In this document: piece after piece, positions 18,633 through 26,618 of the stretch
How the letters are laid out: every line of letters starts with the position of its first letter
How positions within the stretch are numbered: the first letter of the stretch is position 1
From: Propionibacteriaceae bacterium
GTDB taxonomy: Bacteria > Actinomycetota > Actinomycetes > Propionibacteriales > Propionibacteriaceae
NCBI GenBank assembly: GCA_020846255.1
Contig: JADLEH010000406.1
Location: 1 to 32,591, forward strand
Length of the DNA stretch: 32,591 nucleotides
Reading direction: 5' to 3'
The notes under the pieces: generated by a model
The model's input: the letters and a program-made list of their open reading frames with translations, nothing else
Database searches by the model: none
What the model was told of the DNA's origin: nothing
Position numbers and translations under genes: made by a program

Positions 18633-19196
18633 TCATCCGCGCCACTCCGGGGCGAGCAGCCCCATGACGTAGCAGTCGACCCAGTCGTCGTCGAACCGCA
18701 GTGCCTGCCGCTTGGTGCCTTCGACGACGAACCCCACCTTCTCGTAGACGTGGCGGGCCCTGGAGTTGAACGCGTAGACGTCCAGTTCCACCCGGTGCAG
18801 CCCGACGGCGAAGGCATGGGCCATGCTCAGCCGGACCGCCTCGGTGCCGAGGCCCCGGTTGGTCGCGCCGCTGATCCAGATCCGGAAGCCGCAGCTGAGG
18901 TTCTCCTCGTCGAGGTGGTTGAGCACGGCCTCCCCGACCACCTGACCGCTGGTGTTGTCGAGGACGACCCAGACGATCCGGTCGTTGGCCGTCATCCAGC
19001 CGGCGTAGATCGAGTTGAGCTCCGCCACCGTCCACAGTTCCGGCTCCTCCCCGCTGCTGTGGTGCACCGAACCGGTGAGGCGACCCACCTCGGGGTCGGA
19101 CATCAGCGTCCACAGGGTCGGGACGTCGGCCACCTCCACCGGTCGCAGGGTGACCAGTTCACCGGTCAGCGCCGGCTTGGCGGAGAAGTCCGGCAT
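18633..19196 (-). CDS. GNAT-family N-acetyltransferase (RimJ/RimL-like)
   Basis: LVTLRPVEVADVPTLWTLMSDPEVGRLTG...RGLGTEAVRLSMAHAFAVGLHRVELDVYAFNSRARHVYEKVGFVVEGTKRQALRFDDDWVDCYVMGLL. Confidence 0.92.
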   Translation of the reverse strand: MPDFSAKPALTGELVTLRPVEVADVPTLWTLMSDPEVGRLTGSVHHSSGEEPELWTVAELNSIYAGWMTANDRIVWVVLDNTSGQVVGEAVLNHLDEENLSCGFRIWISGATNRGLGTEAVRLSMAHAFAVGLHRVELDVYAFNSRARHVYEKVGFVVEGTKRQALRFDDDWVDCYVMGLLAPEWRG

Positions 19197-19418: not shown

Positions 19419-21908
19419 TCAGCCGGCTTGCCAGGTGGAGCCGAGCACGACGAACGCAGAGCCGGTGGAAGTGGCGGCCGCAAGGGCCTCGTCACTGGGC
19501 AACCCGCCGGCGAGGCCGGCGTGGTAGGCGGCCATGGTCGCTGCGGTCTCGGCGTCGGCGACCGGGGCGACGGCCGCAACCACCGAGCTGACGCCGAGGG
19601 CGAGCAGGGTGTCGGCGAGGCCGAGCGGTTCGTCGCCGGGGCGCACCTGGGCCGTGCCGACGTCACAGGCCGAAAGCACCACGTGGCCGGCGCGGACACG
19701 ACCTGCGGGCAGCTCGTGGGCATACACGTCACCGTCGCTCATCCGCAGCGAGGAGAACAGCGGGCTGTCGGCCCGGTGCAGGCCGTGGGCTGCGACATGG
19801 ACGACTTCTGCGGAACCGAGCGCAGCCAGCAACTCCCCACTCGTCGCAGCCTCCCGGAGCCCGGCGGACGGCCAGGCGCCGGCCACTGCGGCAGCCTCGG
19901 CAGCGGCGTGGTCGAGGCCGGGACCGGTGAGGACCTCGACGTGCGGCGCACCCGTCCGCCGCCGTCCGGCCCACCCGGTCGCCGAGCTGGCCACCGTCAC
20001 CGGGACCCCGGCCAGCGATGGCAACCCGCCCCACGGCACGGACGCGACAGCGTGGGTGCCGATCACGACGAGTCCGGGCGAACGCACCCGCCACGGCCGC
20101 ACCAGGGTTTCGTCAAGCCAGGCCAAGCCCGCGGTTAGCGATCCGGCGACCGCCACCCGGAGCGGCCCAGCGGGCTGGTAGGCGATGGCGCGCAGATCCG
20201 CCTGGACCCGCCGGGTGGTCTCGAGGCAGCGGTCGAGCTCGGCCAGCCGCGCCAGCCGCCGCCGGCCGCCGATCATCGCCACCCCCCACAACCCGCCGTC
20301 ATGGGGGAAGAACCACAGCAGGTCGCGGTCGGCGGCGACGATTCGGGCCAGGGCATCGGAGGCGTGGACCAGCGCAGCTGCGCCCAGCTCCTCCTGGCGC
20401 TGCGCGAGGCTCAGCCCGGTCAGTTCGCGGCGCAGGCGGAGCGACTCGGCGCGCCGCGCGGCGGCCTCCGGACCGGCCGGATCCTCCCGGAGCACGCGTG
20501 AGAGCGCCCGCAACCGGCGGGTGAGTTCGGCCTGGCGGGGGTCGGCGGGCGGACGAACCACCGGCAGGCCGAGGCTGCTCCACCGCTCCAGCGTTGTGAG
20601 CACGTCCGTCGGACCCCGCTGCACTGCGAGGTCTATGTCGAGCTGCGCCAGGCGGAGGCTGAGCACCTTGCGGGCAGCCCGCGAGTCGAGGGAGGCGCTG
20701 GCGGCCTGGCTCGCTGCCAGGGCTGACGCCGCGGCCGCGAGCTGGCGTCGCGGCGAGCGTCCGGCTGCGAGGTTGGCCACGGCGGTGGCGTAGGCCAGCC
20801 GGAGGTTGAGGACCAGGCCGAAGGATGCGTTCGGGTAGCGGCGCAGGGCGAGCCGTGCCTCCTCCGGCCGGCCGAGGCGGGCGGCAGCCTCCGCCGCGAC
20901 GACGACGGCGCGGGCGCGCAGCTCCGGATCGCCGAGGTCGACAGCCACCCGCTCATCTTCGGCGGCAGCGGTCGCAGCCTGCTGCAGCCGACGGCCGGTG
21001 GCGAGGTCGGCGTCGCGGACGATCAGGTCGGACTGGGCCGCCGGACCTGCCATCCCGAGCCGGCGGAAGCGTCGCCTTGCCGACCGGGCGGAAGCCGCGG
21101 ACTCGGCGTACTCCCCGGCGAGCAGCAGGGTCCGCGCGCGCTGCATGTCGACCTCGGCCCGCAGCAACCGGTCCTGGCCGGGGCGGCAGGCGGCCCGGGC
21201 CTGGTCGAGCGCCGCGACCGCCTCGTCGAGCAGGCCGGCTTCGTGCAGCACCAGGCCGCGGTCGTAGAGGGCCGTCCCGCGGAACACGTCCGCGTCCATC
21301 CGGTCGGCGACAGCCATGGTCGCGAGCGCCCCGGGGAGGTCCCCGGTGAGGTAGAGGGCGTAGCCCCGGTTGTGCTGGGCCATGAACGCCTGGCGATCGT
21401 CGCCGCCGTCCCTGGCGAGCTCTGCGGCCGCCTCGAACTCGGCAGCCGCCTCACCGGGCCGGCCCAGCCACTGGAAGACCATCCCCCGGTTCAGTCGGAT
21501 CGTGCACTGCTCCAGGGGCGTGAACCACTGCGGCTCCTCGACCACGACCGCCAGCTCTGCGGCCGCTGTGGCCAGGTCCCCGCTGCGCCCGAGGATCAGA
21601 CCACGCTGGCACCGCCACCGCGCGACCAGCTCCGGTTCGCCGCCGGCCAGCAGCCGGGCTTCGTCGAGGCGGGTCTGGGCAGCCGGCAGGCCCCCCAGCT
21701 GGTACTCGGCCACGGCCAGGGTCAGCAGGCAGGCGACCCGGACGGCGTTCTCCGCGGCCGTGGCCGGCTGGTCCGGGGGCGGCACCAGGCGAAGTGCCCG
21801 CGACAGGGTGGCCATTGCGCGCCGGGGCCGGCCGGCCAGGTTCTCGCTGACCGCCTCCGCCCGCAGCGACCGGGCGCGGTCGAGGCCGTCCGGTTCTGCG
21901 ACCGGCAC
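19419..21908 (-). CDS. TPR-CHAT domain protein (caspase-like protease)
   Basis: 829 aa; N-terminal helical/TPR-like repeats; C-terminal EVVHVAAHGLHRADSPLFSSL...HVVLSACDVGTAQVRPGDEPLGLADTLLALGVSSVVAAVAPV with CHAT His (AHG) and Cys (SACDVG). Confidence 0.92.
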   Translation of the reverse strand: MPVAEPDGLDRARSLRAEAVSENLAGRPRRAMATLSRALRLVPPPDQPATAAENAVRVACLLTLAVAEYQLGGLPAAQTRLDEARLLAGGEPELVARWRCQRGLILGRSGDLATAAAELAVVVEEPQWFTPLEQCTIRLNRGMVFQWLGRPGEAAAEFEAAAELARDGGDDRQAFMAQHNRGYALYLTGDLPGALATMAVADRMDADVFRGTALYDRGLVLHEAGLLDEAVAALDQARAACRPGQDRLLRAEVDMQRARTLLLAGEYAESAASARSARRRFRRLGMAGPAAQSDLIVRDADLATGRRLQQAATAAAEDERVAVDLGDPELRARAVVVAAEAAARLGRPEEARLALRRYPNASFGLVLNLRLAYATAVANLAAGRSPRRQLAAAASALAASQAASASLDSRAARKVLSLRLAQLDIDLAVQRGPTDVLTTLERWSSLGLPVVRPPADPRQAELTRRLRALSRVLREDPAGPEAAARRAESLRLRRELTGLSLAQRQEELGAAALVHASDALARIVAADRDLLWFFPHDGGLWGVAMIGGRRRLARLAELDRCLETTRRVQADLRAIAYQPAGPLRVAVAGSLTAGLAWLDETLVRPWRVRSPGLVVIGTHAVASVPWGGLPSLAGVPVTVASSATGWAGRRRTGAPHVEVLTGPGLDHAAAEAAAVAGAWPSAGLREAATSGELLAALGSAEVVHVAAHGLHRADSPLFSSLRMSDGDVYAHELPAGRVRAGHVVLSACDVGTAQVRPGDEPLGLADTLLALGVSSVVAAVAPVADAETAATMAAYHAGLAGGLPSDEALAAATSTGSAFVVLGSTWQAG

Positions 21909-21913
21909 GGCGC

Positions 21914-22378
21914 TCAGATCTCGACCGATGGGGTGATCACGGGGCGGTAGCCCTCCCGGCGGACGACGAAGTGCGCCTTCCCGCGGGGCAGGCCGTCGAC
22001 GGAGAACCGCCCGCCGTCGTCCGCGACCGTGGTGCGGGTGACGCCCTCGCCGACCACGTCCACCTCGGCGCCCGGGCTGGTCACCCAGCCGTCGACCCGG
22101 ACGTGGCGCGCACCGGCGACCGTTGTGACCATCAGGCTCAGCGAACCGCTGGTGAAGGTCACCGAGTCGGTCTCCTCGCTGCGAACGCCCGCCAGCTCGC
22201 CCATGGTGAGCTCGGCGAGGTCGGCCTCGAGTTCTGCGACGGCGATGGCGAAGTCGATCCGCTCCGCCAGCCCCGGCGGCACCGGGTCGAGGAGGTCATG
22301 GATGCCGGCCAGGTCCCGCAGGAGGAGCTGGTCGATGGCGTCGATCTGCTGGTCGGCGCCGAACTGTTCGGTGCTCAC
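21914..22378 (-). CDS. Hypothetical protein, 155 aa, helical N-terminus plus carboxypeptidase-regulatory-like beta domain; possible regulator of the sigma factor
   Basis: GTG 22378 one nt after the sigma stop; C-terminus GWVTSPGAEVDVVGEGVTRTTVADDGGRFSVDGLPRGKAHFVVRREG resembles a CarboxypepD_reg/transthyretin-like sandwich. Confidence 0.7.
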   Translation of the reverse strand: MSTEQFGADQQIDAIDQLLLRDLAGIHDLLDPVPPGLAERIDFAIAVAELEADLAELTMGELAGVRSEETDSVTFTSGSLSLMVTTVAGARHVRVDGWVTSPGAEVDVVGEGVTRTTVADDGGRFSVDGLPRGKAHFVVRREGYRPVITPSVEI

Positions 22379-22379
22379 C

Positions 22380-22949
22380 TCAGTGCTCCCATCTCGGGTC
22401 GGTTTCCAGGGCCGTCCGGAGTTTCGCCAGGCAGCGGCCACGGGTCGGGCCGATGCTCCCGACCGGCATGCCGAGGCTGGCGGCGACACTGGCGTAGTCG
22501 GGGACCGCGGCGAAAGCGATCACGCGCAGCAGTGCCCGGCAACGCTCCGGCAGATCGTTGACGTGGCGCCAGAGCACCCGCTGCCGGTCACTCAACAGCG
22601 CCAGCTCCTCCGGGGTGGTCGTTGCGGCTCCCTCCGGCAGCCCGGTGTCGGGTTCGGCCTCCCGGCCGTCCAGGCGCAGCAACCGCCAGGTCTCCCGCTT
22701 GACTGTGACCACCAGCCACGACACGACCCCCTTCGGGTCGGTGATGGTGTCGGCGGCCTCGACCAGGCGCACCCAGGCGGTCTGGATCGCGTCCTCGGCG
22801 ATCTCGGTCGGCGCCCGCTGCGAGCGGGCGGTGTGCCAGAGCAGCGGGTTCACCAGTGCGACCAGTTCGCGCAGGCGCTCCCGGTCGCCGTCCCGGTAGC
22901 CGGCGAACGCTGTTGCGGCCTGTGCGCCCAGTGACACTGTCGAGCTCAT
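22380..22949 (-). CDS. Sigma-70 family (ECF-like) RNA polymerase sigma factor
   Basis: 189 aa; region 2 AEDAIQTAWVRLVEAADTITDPKGVVSWLVVTVKRETWRLLR; region 4 LPERCRALLRVIAF...DYASVAASLGMPVGSIGPTRGRCLAKLRTAL. Confidence 0.92.
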   Translation of the reverse strand: MSSTVSLGAQAATAFAGYRDGDRERLRELVALVNPLLWHTARSQRAPTEIAEDAIQTAWVRLVEAADTITDPKGVVSWLVVTVKRETWRLLRLDGREAEPDTGLPEGAATTTPEELALLSDRQRVLWRHVNDLPERCRALLRVIAFAAVPDYASVAASLGMPVGSIGPTRGRCLAKLRTALETDPRWEH

Positions 22950-24541
22950 GGTCGTTCCGGCCGGAGCAGGCGGGCGAGAACGGATCGGCCACGCTCGACC
23001 AGGGCCTCCAGCCGCACGTCTTCCGTGCCGGCCTCGACCAGCGCCTGGAGGATCTCCCCGGCGAGGACCGGGGTGGCGAAGGAGGTGCCGCTCCAGACCC
23101 CGAAGCCGCCGGAGAAGTCGTCGCGGTCGATGGTCATCCGCTGGTGGTCGTCCGGCGAGCCCGGGGCCGCTGCCGTGGAGGACTGCGCGCCGGCGTTCTC
23201 CCGCTCGGGCAGCGTCGAGACGATCGCTGCGCCGTGGCGGTAGGTGGTGACCCAGTCGCCGGCGTTGGAGAACAGGGCCACCGTGCTCCGGTTCGGGTTG
23301 AGCGCGCCGACGCTCACCAGCGGGAGCCCGTCGGAGCTGGTCGTCTCGCCGGCGAACGCTGCCGGCAGGAACGGGCGCCGGGTGGCGTCGTTCCCGGCCC
23401 CGGCCACGACCAGGACGCCGGCCCGGCCGAGGTCCCGCAACACGGTGGCGACCTCCGTGCCGGAGAGGGTCTGCGGATCGGCCCCCTCGTCGGCGAGGTC
23501 CTCGTGGTAGAACCCGGCGGACAGCGAGACCACGTCGACGATCCCGCCCGGGTCGCCGGTCTCGAGCGCTTCGAGCTGCTGTTCCAGGAGGTCGTGCAGC
23601 AACTCCAGCAGGTCGTCCTCCAGGAGTTCACCGGCCGAGTCCATGACGGCGTGCGCGCGCAGGCGAGCTGCCGGGCAGCTCTGCCGGATGATCCCAGCGA
23701 TGAAGGTGCCGTGCCCGGCCAGGGGCAGGGGATCGCCGATCAGGTCGGAGCCGAGGGCCGGGTGGTCGTCGGGGATCCCGAGGGTTGCCGATGCGACGAC
23801 CGAGACCGCACCCGGCGGCGCCGGCACGATGCCCTCGTCCCGCGGGAACCAGGTGTGCGGACCGATGCCGGTGTCCGGCATCACCACCACCGGCGGGCGC
23901 TTCAGCGCCGGGGCCGACAGTGCGGGGTTGGCCATCACCACCGCCACCGGCACCTTGCCGCCGTAGCCGGGTGCTGCGTACTCCGCCGGGCCCGAGATGC
24001 CGCCCCAGTAGCCGCCGCTGCCGATACCGCCCCAGTAGCCGCCGCTGCCGATGCCGCCCCAGTAGCCGCCGCTGCCGATGCCGCCCCAGTAGCCGCCGCT
24101 GCCGATACCGCCCCAGTAGCCACCGCTGCCGCAGGCGCGCACGAGGTGGTTCAGGGCGAAGGCCCCGGCGAGGTCACCTGCCGCGGCACGGATGTGCTGC
24201 AGTGCGACCCAGGCGTCCGGTGGTGACGTCGGGCCCGAGCCGGCCGGGACCAGCTGCATCGTCACCGGACGAGCGGACTCCAGCTCCACAGCCACCTTGT
24301 ACCGGCGCCGGCCCTCCTGCCTGCGCCTGCGCCGCTGCACCGGTCGCAGTGCCCAGCCCAGCGAGCCGAGCGCTGCCTGCACCCGGTCGTCGAGCCGGTC
24401 GGCCGCCTGGTCCCGGCGAATCACGAGCTGGTCGGACACATAGAGCGTCGGCCCCAGCAGTGGGACCCGGAGATTGCCGGAGCCGTCCTCCGGCTTGCTC
24501 GGCAACACGACTGCGGTGGCTGGATCAAGCACTCGGATCAC
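22946..24541 (-). CDS. S8-family serine peptidase (subtilase), apparently cytoplasmic
   Basis: Asp motif VVVMPDTGIGPH, His motif AGHGTFIAGII, Ser motif WSGTSFATPVLAG; GTG start with AGGAGG SD (complement of 24548-24553); no N-terminal signal peptide apparent. Confidence 0.93.
   Translation of the reverse strand: MIRVLDPATAVVLPSKPEDGSGNLRVPLLGPTLYVSDQLVIRRDQAADRLDDRVQAALGSLGWALRPVQRRRRRQEGRRRYKVAVELESARPVTMQLVPAGSGPTSPPDAWVALQHIRAAAGDLAGAFALNHLVRACGSGGYWGGIGSGGYWGGIGSGGYWGGIGSGGYWGGIGSGGYWGGISGPAEYAAPGYGGKVPVAVVMANPALSAPALKRPPVVVMPDTGIGPHTWFPRDEGIVPAPPGAVSVVASATLGIPDDHPALGSDLIGDPLPLAGHGTFIAGIIRQSCPAARLRAHAVMDSAGELLEDDLLELLHDLLEQQLEALETGDPGGIVDVVSLSAGFYHEDLADEGADPQTLSGTEVATVLRDLGRAGVLVVAGAGNDATRRPFLPAAFAGETTSSDGLPLVSVGALNPNRSTVALFSNAGDWVTTYRHGAAIVSTLPERENAGAQSSTAAAPGSPDDHQRMTIDRDDFSGGFGVWSGTSFATPVLAGEILQALVEAGTEDVRLEALVERGRSVLARLLRPERP
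23996..24130 (-). repeat. Five tandem 27-bp in-frame repeats encoding (GSGGYWGGI)x5 in the S8 peptidase
   Basis: Copies at 23996-24022, 24023-24049, 24050-24076, 24077-24103, 24104-24130; differences only at wobble positions. Confidence 0.97.
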
Positions 24542-24619
24542 GGGGTTCCTCCTGGGTCCGGCGGTGACCGCAGCCTATGCAGCCACCTCCTCACCTGGGT
24601 AGAGCCCCGGCTAAGCACT

Positions 24620-24645
24620 CTGATACCTGGACCCGGACGTATCAG
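24620..24645. promoter_or_regulatory. Perfect 7-bp inverted repeat CTGATAC-N12-GTATCAG upstream of the S8/sigma/CHAT operon
   Basis: Arms 24620-24626 and 24639-24645, about 80-105 bp upstream of the S8 start codon. Confidence 0.45.
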
Positions 24646-24705
24646 GACGCCACGTCGCTGCTCTGAAGGTCATCGGGGGGCGGGCAAGCGTCCCACCGGC
24701 AGCTC

Positions 24706-24858: not shown

Positions 24859-26517
24859 TCACACCTTGTCGACCTGCGTGACCTGCACCGTCGCGGTGTC
24901 ACCGCTCCGGGTGAACTCCCAGGTTGCGGACGGGGCCAGGGCTGCGAGCAGCGCCCGGTCATGGGTGACGATCAGCAGCGTCCCGGCGAACTCGACGAGC
25001 GCGGCCTGCAGCTGCTCGATCGCCTCGACGTCCAGGTGGTTGGTCGGCTCGTCGAGCACGACCACGTTGACCGCCCGACCCTGCAGCACCGCCAGCGCGG
25101 CGCGGGTCCGCTCGCCGAGGGAGAGGGTGTCCCCCGGCCGGCCGACGTGCTCGGCGCCGAGGCCGAACTTCGCCAGCAGCGTTCGGGTGGCCGCGGCGTC
25201 CGGCGAGACGAGCGCTGCCTGCACCTGGTCGAGCAGGGCTTCGGTGCCGGCGATCACGGACCTGGCCTGGTCCAGCCGCCCGAGCACCACCCGGCTTCCC
25301 CACGAGATCCGTCCCGACGCCGGCCGGCCGGCCAGGATCGCGTCCAGCAGGGTGGTCTTCCCGGTGCCGTTGTCGCCGACAAGGGCCACCCGTTCGCCGC
25401 GGGCGACCTGCGCGGAGACCGGCCCGACGGTGAAGTCGCCGTTGGCTGCCACCACCTGGTCGAGGGTGAGCACGATCCCTGCTGATGGCGCAGCCTCGGT
25501 GATCGAGTAGCGCAGCTCCCATTCGCGACGGGGCTGCTCGACCTCCTCCAGCCGGTCGGCCGCACTCCGCACCCGCGCTGCGCGCTGGTCCATCCGCCGG
25601 GCCCGGTCCTCGCGGTACTTCTTCTCCAGCTTCAGCCCTGGACCGAGCTGGGCCGCCTTGGCCCTGCCCTGCTGCGCCCACTCGGTCTTGCGCCTGGCCT
25701 GTTCCACCAGGTCCGTCCGCTCGCCGACGTAGGCGCGGTAGGCGGCTTCGGCCTGGGAGCGGGCCAGGTCGCGTGCCGCCCGGTACTCCGACCACCCGCC
25801 GGCGTAGTGGTTCACCGCCTGCTGGACCAGGTCCAGCTCCACGACGGAGGTGGCCACGGCATCAAGGAACGCCCGGTCGTGGGAGGCGATCAGCACCGGC
25901 GCCGGCGACTGCCGCACGAACCCGGTGATGGCATCCAGCCCGGCCAGGTCGAGGTTGTTGGTCGGCTCGTCGAGCAGCAGCAGGTCGAACCGGCTGACCA
26001 GGATCGACGCCAACGCTGCGCGGGCCGTCTGGCCGCCGGAGAGGCTGCCCAGCGGGCGGTCGAGCTGGACCTCGAGTCCCACCCGGGCCACGACCTCGGC
26101 CAGCCGGACTTCGAGATCCGCCCCGCCGAGGGCCAGCCAGCGCTCCAGGGCGAGGCTGTAGCGGTCAGCGGCAGCGGCGTCCGGTGGACCGGCGAGGGCA
26201 GCTGCCGCCCGCTCGAACTCCAGCCCTGCTGCAGCGACTCCGGTGCGTCGCCGCGCGTAGTCGAGGATGGACTCGGCCGCGGCCGGTGGGGACTGCGGCA
26301 GGTAGCCGACGGCTGCGTCCGGCGGGGCGAACCGGACGGTGCCGGAGTCGGCTGCGTGCTCACCGGCGATGATGCGCAGCAGGGTCGACTTGCCCGAGCC
26401 GTTCACGCCGACGAGGGCGGTCACGTCGCCAGGCGCGAGCGTCAGGTCGAGCCCGGCGAAGAGCGGCCGGGCGCCGAAGGAGGCGGACACGGCGGACAGG
26501 AAAAGGGAAGCGGACAT
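24859..26517 (-). CDS. ABC-F family ATP-binding cassette protein
   Basis: Two NBDs (GVNGSGKST, LSGGQTARAALASI, LLLLDEPTNNLDL; GDNGTGKTT, LSLGERTRAALAVL, VVLDEPTNHLDVEAI) with a charged linker and no TM segments. Confidence 0.93.
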   Translation of the reverse strand: MSASLFLSAVSASFGARPLFAGLDLTLAPGDVTALVGVNGSGKSTLLRIIAGEHAADSGTVRFAPPDAAVGYLPQSPPAAAESILDYARRRTGVAAAGLEFERAAAALAGPPDAAAADRYSLALERWLALGGADLEVRLAEVVARVGLEVQLDRPLGSLSGGQTARAALASILVSRFDLLLLDEPTNNLDLAGLDAITGFVRQSPAPVLIASHDRAFLDAVATSVVELDLVQQAVNHYAGGWSEYRAARDLARSQAEAAYRAYVGERTDLVEQARRKTEWAQQGRAKAAQLGPGLKLEKKYREDRARRMDQRAARVRSAADRLEEVEQPRREWELRYSITEAAPSAGIVLTLDQVVAANGDFTVGPVSAQVARGERVALVGDNGTGKTTLLDAILAGRPASGRISWGSRVVLGRLDQARSVIAGTEALLDQVQAALVSPDAAATRTLLAKFGLGAEHVGRPGDTLSLGERTRAALAVLQGRAVNVVVLDEPTNHLDVEAIEQLQAALVEFAGTLLIVTHDRALLAALAPSATWEFTRSGDTATVQVTQVDKV

Positions 26518-26618
26518 GGGAGACCTCGATCGCTGGCTGGGACAGGGCGAGAGGTCAGTTCCACATGGCAACCAGCTTCACCCGGACCCGCGCTCCCGGT
26601 CAAGCCGACCGGCCCACC

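Follow-up and report, generated by a model that had tools for sequence, protein, structure and literature searches.

Positions 1 to 32,591 of contig JADLEH010000406.1 from a Propionibacteriaceae bacterium (assembly GCA_020846255.1), a stretch of 32,591 nucleotides referred to as the window, carry an operon of four genes. They encode a subtilisin-type protease of family S8, an extracytoplasmic function (ECF) sigma factor (SIG), a small protein with a CarboxypepD_reg domain (CPD), and a protease that combines tetratricopeptide repeats (TPR) with a CHAT domain. The main finding is a tandem array of one short peptide inside the S8 protein, located between a propeptide-like domain and the catalytic domain. 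The original prediction made from this sequence is silent on this array. No report of the array was found in the literature, where only a statement on the ECF54 gene context surfaced and the primary ECF surveys of 2021 and 2015 were outside this check. With this new and unexpected element, the mechanism of the operon becomes testable. The association of the four genes is the already published ECF54 context and is therefore not new.

At the same position of the S8 protein, relatives carry other units, such as GGGGYWHGI, GGGFMPGI, GGIWGGV, PYLAGV, PYDSSH, NPFTKS, PHNEPT and others. The units are 5-10 amino acids (AA) long with hexapeptides being the most common, and the copy number is variable. 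The first set comprised 88 distinct arrays with 71 distinct unit strings before rotation was allowed for. The resulting number of about 70 unit sequences is approximate because a few of the 88 arrays stem from wrongly oriented frames (L132, L136, L142). In a cleaner set, an array was present in 90 of the 95 readable distinct type A linkers, and the five linkers without a regular array (L037, L109, L067, L117, L196) contain a single motif or spaced copies. Since unrelated spacers separate the four copies of PHVAF in L117 and the four copies of PYWHP in L197, the motif is kept while the spacing is free. Very long arrays with at least 12 copies were seen in L199 (SPMHDG) and L200 (NPYATG).

None of the 21 other subtilases that could be read in genomes with the operon had even two adjacent copies of a unit, and an operon S8, included as a positive control, was detected in this test. 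The unit was found neither in SIG, CPD or CHAT nor, for GYWGGI, anywhere in the window genome outside the array, and no second protein carrying the unit was found in eight PYYAGV and GYWGG[IV] genomes with matches. In Knoellia sinensis (L122), the S8 unit GWGDGI recurs four times with 12-residue spacing in the C-terminal part of a trypsin-like protein encoded nearby. This copy in trans may stem from recent copying by recombination, but a common reader would account for it as well.

In the window array, the copies differ synonymously only. For copies within one gene, the pooled proportions of synonymous (pS) and non-synonymous (pN) differences were 0.498 and 0.015. The first seed used for these values required perfect neighbours; the repeat used a 60 % identity rule and minimum-change counts. 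A minimum of 383 synonymous and 28 non-synonymous changes was counted among copies, with a random expectation of 24.6 % synonymous changes. Between nine sister-species pairs, which were picked for a common unit, the array residues were identical in all nine, and pN/pS was 0.011 for the array, 0.37 for the N domain and 0.25 for the enzyme. The residual non-synonymous counts in the array are due to leucine codon pathways, as the residues themselves are identical. These codon patterns show that strong purifying selection acts on every copy. Two other explanations, a neutral repeat and gene conversion, were considered and are ruled out by the codon pattern and the sister-species pN/pS, because both slippage and conversion would have made the synonymous sites uniform as well. 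Proteins with more than about 77 % S8 identity always have the same unit, and below 75 % identity the units are usually different. This pattern indicates that the peptide is fixed over long periods and then exchanged in all copies together, examples being the replacement of Tyr by His between L030 and L031/L032 and of Met by Leu between L189b and L190a.

The position of the array was examined in an AlphaFold2 (AF2) model of S8. Here, an N domain of beta-alpha-beta-beta-alpha-beta topology with pLDDT values mostly above 90 is followed by the disordered array (pLDDT <50) and then by the catalytic domain. In Foldseek searches, S8 aligned with pro-subtilisins over both domains with a TMq of about 0.39-0.42, compared to about 0.30 for mature forms, and the closest PDB sequences include intracellular subtilisins. 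A Pfam search of the N domain returned neither Inhibitor_I9 nor any other match by sequence, and a comparison with the N domains of other subtilases gave no sequence match either. The N domain is thus probably propeptide-like, with homology to Inhibitor_I9 by fold only. The array starts exactly six residues after the His of a conserved [DNE]H motif in 26 of 75 cases, including the window, and five to seven residues after it in 34 of 75. In pro-subtilisin E, the stretch EEDHIAHEY is followed by the mature sequence AQSV, so that an offset of six is equivalent to the P1' position of autoprocessing.

Duplicated loci bear on the pairing of S8 and CHAT. L189 and L190, which belong to another class, contain two S8-CHAT pairs per locus, with one SIG found in each. 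One pair has the peptide PFTSGG in both species, and the other has PMYDGH or PLYDGH. The S8/CHAT identities are 63/60 % and 50/57 % for the pair-mates across species and 41-43/42-48 % for the local paralogue. Due to this higher cross-species identity, each pair must have retained its peptide from a time before the two species separated, and the retention of separate peptides in paralogous pairs suggests insulation. For TPR-CHAT, the AF2 model has a pLDDT of 91.1, and Foldseek returned separase as top matches (1e-13) and Csx29 (4e-12).

The four genes form a conserved module. Matches to S8 were found in 21 of 60 relatives, and in most of these the other three genes adjoin. A scan of genome contigs yielded at least 80 named loci, every one of them actinobacterial, and at a cut-off of E<=1e-20 there were matches in 170 of the order's 397 genomes, among them the more distant type B systems discussed below. 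Among 97 loci, CHAT was present in 95 and both the sigma factor and CPD in 94. The exceptions include L058, which runs into a contig end, and L105, which runs into a run of N, as well as L098 and L117, in which S8 and CHAT are kept as a pair and a sigma homologue lies at another genomic site. The genes are mainly arranged in one of two orders, S8-SIG-CPD-CHAT or SIG-CPD-S8-CHAT, both tightly spaced, and the adjacency of SIG and CPD holds in both as well as in type B loci. The Asp, His, Asn and Ser of S8 are intact in 97 of 97 orthologues, and the catalytic residues of CHAT in all readable cases (His 86/86, Cys 87/87). A hydrophobic N-terminal segment was found in none of about 95 orthologues of each protein. 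The view that the four genes are one system with two catalytically intact, apparently cytoplasmic proteases without signal peptides, as put forward in the original prediction, is therefore borne out across Actinomycetota. Two of the outcomes that would have refuted it, a lack of clustering in other genomes and the loss of catalytic residues in most homologues, did not occur.

No fifth conserved gene was found around the module. Flanking genes are common within genera only, which suggests that the module has been passed on vertically instead of belonging to a mobile defence island. No carriers were found among viral contigs, the plasmid search returned one distant match only, a Nonomuraea record of chromosome size, and a scan of the system proteins against PADLOC-DB 2.0.0 gave only weak matches (BovA 0.0017, subtilase 0.0049). 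The cascade from proteolysis to transcription that had been proposed for the operon holds up in part: the conserved module, two intact proteases, a dedicated sigma factor, the Csx29-like CHAT fold and a shared ECF-like promoter all fit a switch. A role of the module in conflict, immunity or cell death is possible and so far unsupported.

Table 1. Features of the operon and its upstream region in the window.
Feature	Position	Strand	Remarks
S8 subtilase	24541-22946	minus	GTG start; Peptidase_S8 PF00082 8.5e-9 (Pfam)
S8 N-terminal domain, residues 1-138	24128-24541	minus	ends in conserved [DNE]H (Asn131-His132)
S8 tandem array (Gly-Ser-Gly-Gly-Tyr-Trp-Gly-Gly-Ile) x5, residues 138-182	23996-24130	minus	read directly
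ECF sigma factor, 189 AA, ECF54-like context	22949-22380	minus	Sigma70_r2 2.4e-8 (Pfam)
CPD, 154 AA: N-terminal DPVPxGL helix region and CarboxypepD_reg beta domain	22378-21914	minus	PF13620 9.2e-8
TPR-CHAT protease, 829 AA	21908-19419	minus	PF12770 2.6e-21 (Pfam), TPRs present
ECF-like promoter GTATCA-N16-CTCT, 5' of the operon	24601-24626	minus	position weight matrix score 20.3
Second, divergent GTATCA...CTCT motif, placed back to back with that of the operon	24639-24664	plus	position weight matrix score 20.4

Reading of the open reading frames and spacings confirmed the predicted packing of the four minus-strand genes, with a 4-bp ATGA overlap between S8 and the sigma gene and gaps of 1 nt between sigma and CPD and 5 nt between CPD and CHAT. 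The strong Shine-Dalgarno sequence noted at the S8 start is AGGAGG at 24553-24548. For the protein described as having 155 AA, gene and position were right, but its length is 154 AA, with 155 codons including the stop. The catalytic motifs, reported as kept, are Asp223, His277, Asn384 and Ser487 in S8 and His708 and Cys748 in TPR-CHAT, where the TPRs span residues ~1-510 and the CHAT domain ~515-829. The sigma factor also exceeds the cut-off of the NCBIfam model sigma70-ECF TIGR02937 (52.7 bits vs 42.9), and PF13620 was matched in 13 of 29 CPD members. By eye, the operon is flanked by genes for an ABC-F type ATPase (24859-26571, minus strand), a neighbour common to close relatives, and a GNAT-like acetyltransferase (18633-19196, minus strand).

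An unbiased dyad search of the upstream regions of the operon placed GTATC-N17/18-TCCT/CTCC at the top, with 34 of 94 regions compared to at most 8 in shuffles. With a refined matrix, GTATCA-N16/17-CTC[CT], 64 of the 94 upstream regions scored above 14, compared to 1 of 282 shuffles. From this co-occurrence, we infer that the ECF sigma factor recognises the GTATCA motif. The matrix also marks accessory subtilases near the operon (L069, L084, L087, L110, L120), trypsin/Nal1-like neighbours (L034, L099, L122, L192) and, in type B loci, a membrane protein. In seven Nocardioides-type loci (L036, L086, L088, L097, L102, L118, L199), a GTATCA promoter lies 5' of a gene behind CHAT for a protein of 109-117 AA (SRWxVxxRPGxLLPLEE). 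The divergent GTATCA copy of the window is shared by the close relatives L027-L033. The exact promoter pattern had few matches in each of 60 genomes, near the reversed control, with exceptions such as G035 (5 vs 1). For this reason, no large regulon is claimed.

Several side observations concern these accessory genes. In L028 and L029, the divergent promoter faces a protein of 81-86 AA that is similar to the N-terminal region of the trypsin-like accessory proteins. The trypsin/Nal1-like proteins (L122:6895-8436, minus strand; L034, L099, L192) have TRP..C repeats rich in Cys, and the motif YW[AS]GY[LM] is conserved at their C-terminus. The protein of 109-117 AA resembles a chagasin-type inhibitor by eye and has no Pfam or NCBIfam match. 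In L056 and L074, a protein of 719-776 AA (MGPTYAGGSQPI..DGYDVLYLPDVNN) without family assignment is encoded 3' of CHAT behind a GTATCA promoter.

With a probability of about 0.45, the array is a lineage-specific recognition tag between the S8 zymogen and TPR-CHAT in an ECF54-type switch that would lead to sigma release and autoactivation. The chances are about even for a self-encoded peptide code, in which the S8 copies are bound, cut or released by the partner TPR-CHAT, with private specificity for each pair and control of the sigma factor. The system would consist of two matched pairs, a protease pair of S8 and TPR-CHAT and a transcription pair of the ECF sigma factor and CPD, which is presumed from its constant place beside sigma to be the sigma regulator. 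The TPR superhelix would dock on the array, or the CHAT site would cut it. Upon a trigger, this engagement would remove or displace the S8 propeptide, the active proteases would destroy CPD, and the freed sigma factor would drive its own operon together with a few accessory proteases that vary from lineage to lineage. Each S8-CHAT pair would be insulated from other systems by its lineage-specific unit.

If true, such a peptide code would amount to a new mode of signalling inside bacterial cells, present across many Actinobacteria and based on a zymogen tag or an intracellular peptide messenger. It would tie caspase/separase-like proteases and subtilisin zymogens to sigma control within a single circuit. 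The ECF54 sigma factors have so far been listed as proteolysis-regulated from gene context alone, and the array gives a concrete handle on them. It points to the site of S8 engagement, predicts a private S8-CHAT pair, and makes the choice of partner testable with short synthetic peptides. The GTATCA promoter can serve directly as a reporter and offers accessory proteases as a candidate regulon, and many natural orthogonal peptide-protease pairs would be supplied if the proposal is right.

Several observations weigh against the recognition tag. In covariation and partial Mantel tests, peptide distance correlated similarly with TPR, CHAT, CPD and S8 distances, so CHAT was not singled out. In type B systems, which occur in Streptomyces-sized and other genomes (L160-L179, L042-L046), S8 has no array and instead a single CP[AD][TDI]EP motif 10-14 residues past the DH, invariant in 20 of 20. 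These systems pair S8 and CHAT nevertheless, and therefore an array is not required for pairing. The type B CHAT gene is usually divergent from S8. The unit occurs in trans in only 1 of 104 loci, the case of L122, and for the anti-sigma role of CPD the evidence is adjacency only. The nine sister pairs were selected as described above, although all pairs above about 77 % identity share the unit. Lastly, all copies are kept, although they should be redundant and decay if any single cut sufficed. This speaks against the single-cut form of the proposal and makes docking through avidity, or the release of peptides, more plausible than a simple cut site.

The explanation that comes next is possible although clearly on the unlikely side: the array could be a multi-copy precursor from which S8 or CHAT cuts identical short signal peptides that bind the TPR domain. 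Identity of every copy is expected if dose matters, the unit has a length of 5-10 AA, and the array starts at the autoprocessing position of the propeptide in many members, with free spacing. However, there is no signal peptide and no conserved exporter or fifth gene, and TPR-CHAT has no helix-turn-helix (HTH) domain, unlike RRNPP proteins. In addition, the residues at the unit ends are by eye unlike the S4-S1 propeptide tail, so that S8 is not an obvious cutter at the unit borders.

It is rather doubtful that the array serves self-processing only, as a tether or cleft plug in the maturation or autoinhibition of S8 that is tuned to its own specificity, with CHAT acting elsewhere. The location right behind the propeptide-like domain with the recurring offset of six, the Foldseek matches to unprocessed pro-subtilisins and the proximity to intracellular subtilisins would be in line with this. 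On the other hand, AF2 gives the array no defined place, ordinary subtilases in these genomes need no array to mature, and L122 carries the motif a second time in a protease of another fold.

The published view of ECF54 is that the neighbouring proteases degrade the sigma factor and the system stays off, which would make the array incidental. It was proposed from gene context in PMC8999054, which cites Casas-Pastor 2021 and Huang 2015 and describes actinobacterial ECF54 sigma factors next to carboxypeptidase-like, subtilase and CHAT genes. The degradation of sigma is a guess there. This view predicts neither lineage-specific arrays under purifying selection nor the duplication of S8-CHAT with new peptides beside a single sigma factor, and the peptide is absent from SIG and CPD. 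It is therefore considered improbable as an account of the array.

Slightly less probable still is a function as bait, in which the array mimics cleavage sites of foreign proteases from phages or predators and a cut frees S8. Many copies, the turnover of units between genera and the fact that one cut at the array position would free the propeptide could be explained in this way. Yet units that stay unchanged above about 77 % S8 identity turn over slowly for an arms race, a single cut would be enough and copies should therefore decay, and the system has no viral carrier and neighbourhoods common within genera. A neutral minisatellite, although compatible with tandem repeats of variable copy number in a disordered linker, is very improbable given a pS of ~0.5 vs a pN of ~0.015 among copies, the 383 vs 28 changes, and a stronger conservation of the array than of the enzyme in the sister-species comparison.

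Compared with known systems, the S8 protein shares its fold, the intact triad and oxyanion Asn, and a probably propeptide-like domain, similar by fold only and ending in a DH-V strand, with pro-subtilisins and intracellular subtilisins (subtilisin E/BPN', Tk-subtilisin, ISP, CylA), but adds a tandem lineage-specific array at the junction and lacks a signal peptide. Multi-copy precursors such as alpha-factor and neuropeptide precursors carry many identical, species-specific short peptides per chain, and Phr-type peptides bind TPR proteins of the RRNPP family, in which the receptor carries an HTH or Rap domain and the secreted propeptide a signal sequence. The window S8 resembles these in its identical short peptides, TPR partner and lineage-specific sequence. 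In contrast to them, its array is embedded in a protease without a secretion signal or known receptor, and the TPR is fused to CHAT without an HTH. Like separase, the window TPR-CHAT combines a helical repeat region with a CHAT-type cysteine protease, but it is bacterial and paired with S8 and an ECF sigma factor, without securin or cohesin.

The closest gene context is that of the ECF54 group, to which the operon corresponds in its ECF sigma factor and its carboxypeptidase-like, subtilase and CHAT genes as far as the group is described in the available part of PMC8999054; the array, the promoter, the logic of S8-CHAT pairs and the accessory proteases are not mentioned in that part. In the Craspase/CASP system (Cas7-11, Csx29, Csx30, CASP-sigma), Csx29 cleaves Csx30, the inhibitor of the ECF-like CASP-sigma (PMC10028731). 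Both systems have a TPR-CHAT protease with intact His and Cys and a Csx29-like fold, an ECF sigma factor and a partner protein. By analogy, CPD may play the role of Csx30 without Cas7-11. Unlike type III-E systems, the conserved module is a four-gene cassette only, without Cas7-11 or a CRISPR array; its partner protein is a CarboxypepD_reg protein, and it adds a subtilisin-type protease with a peptide array.

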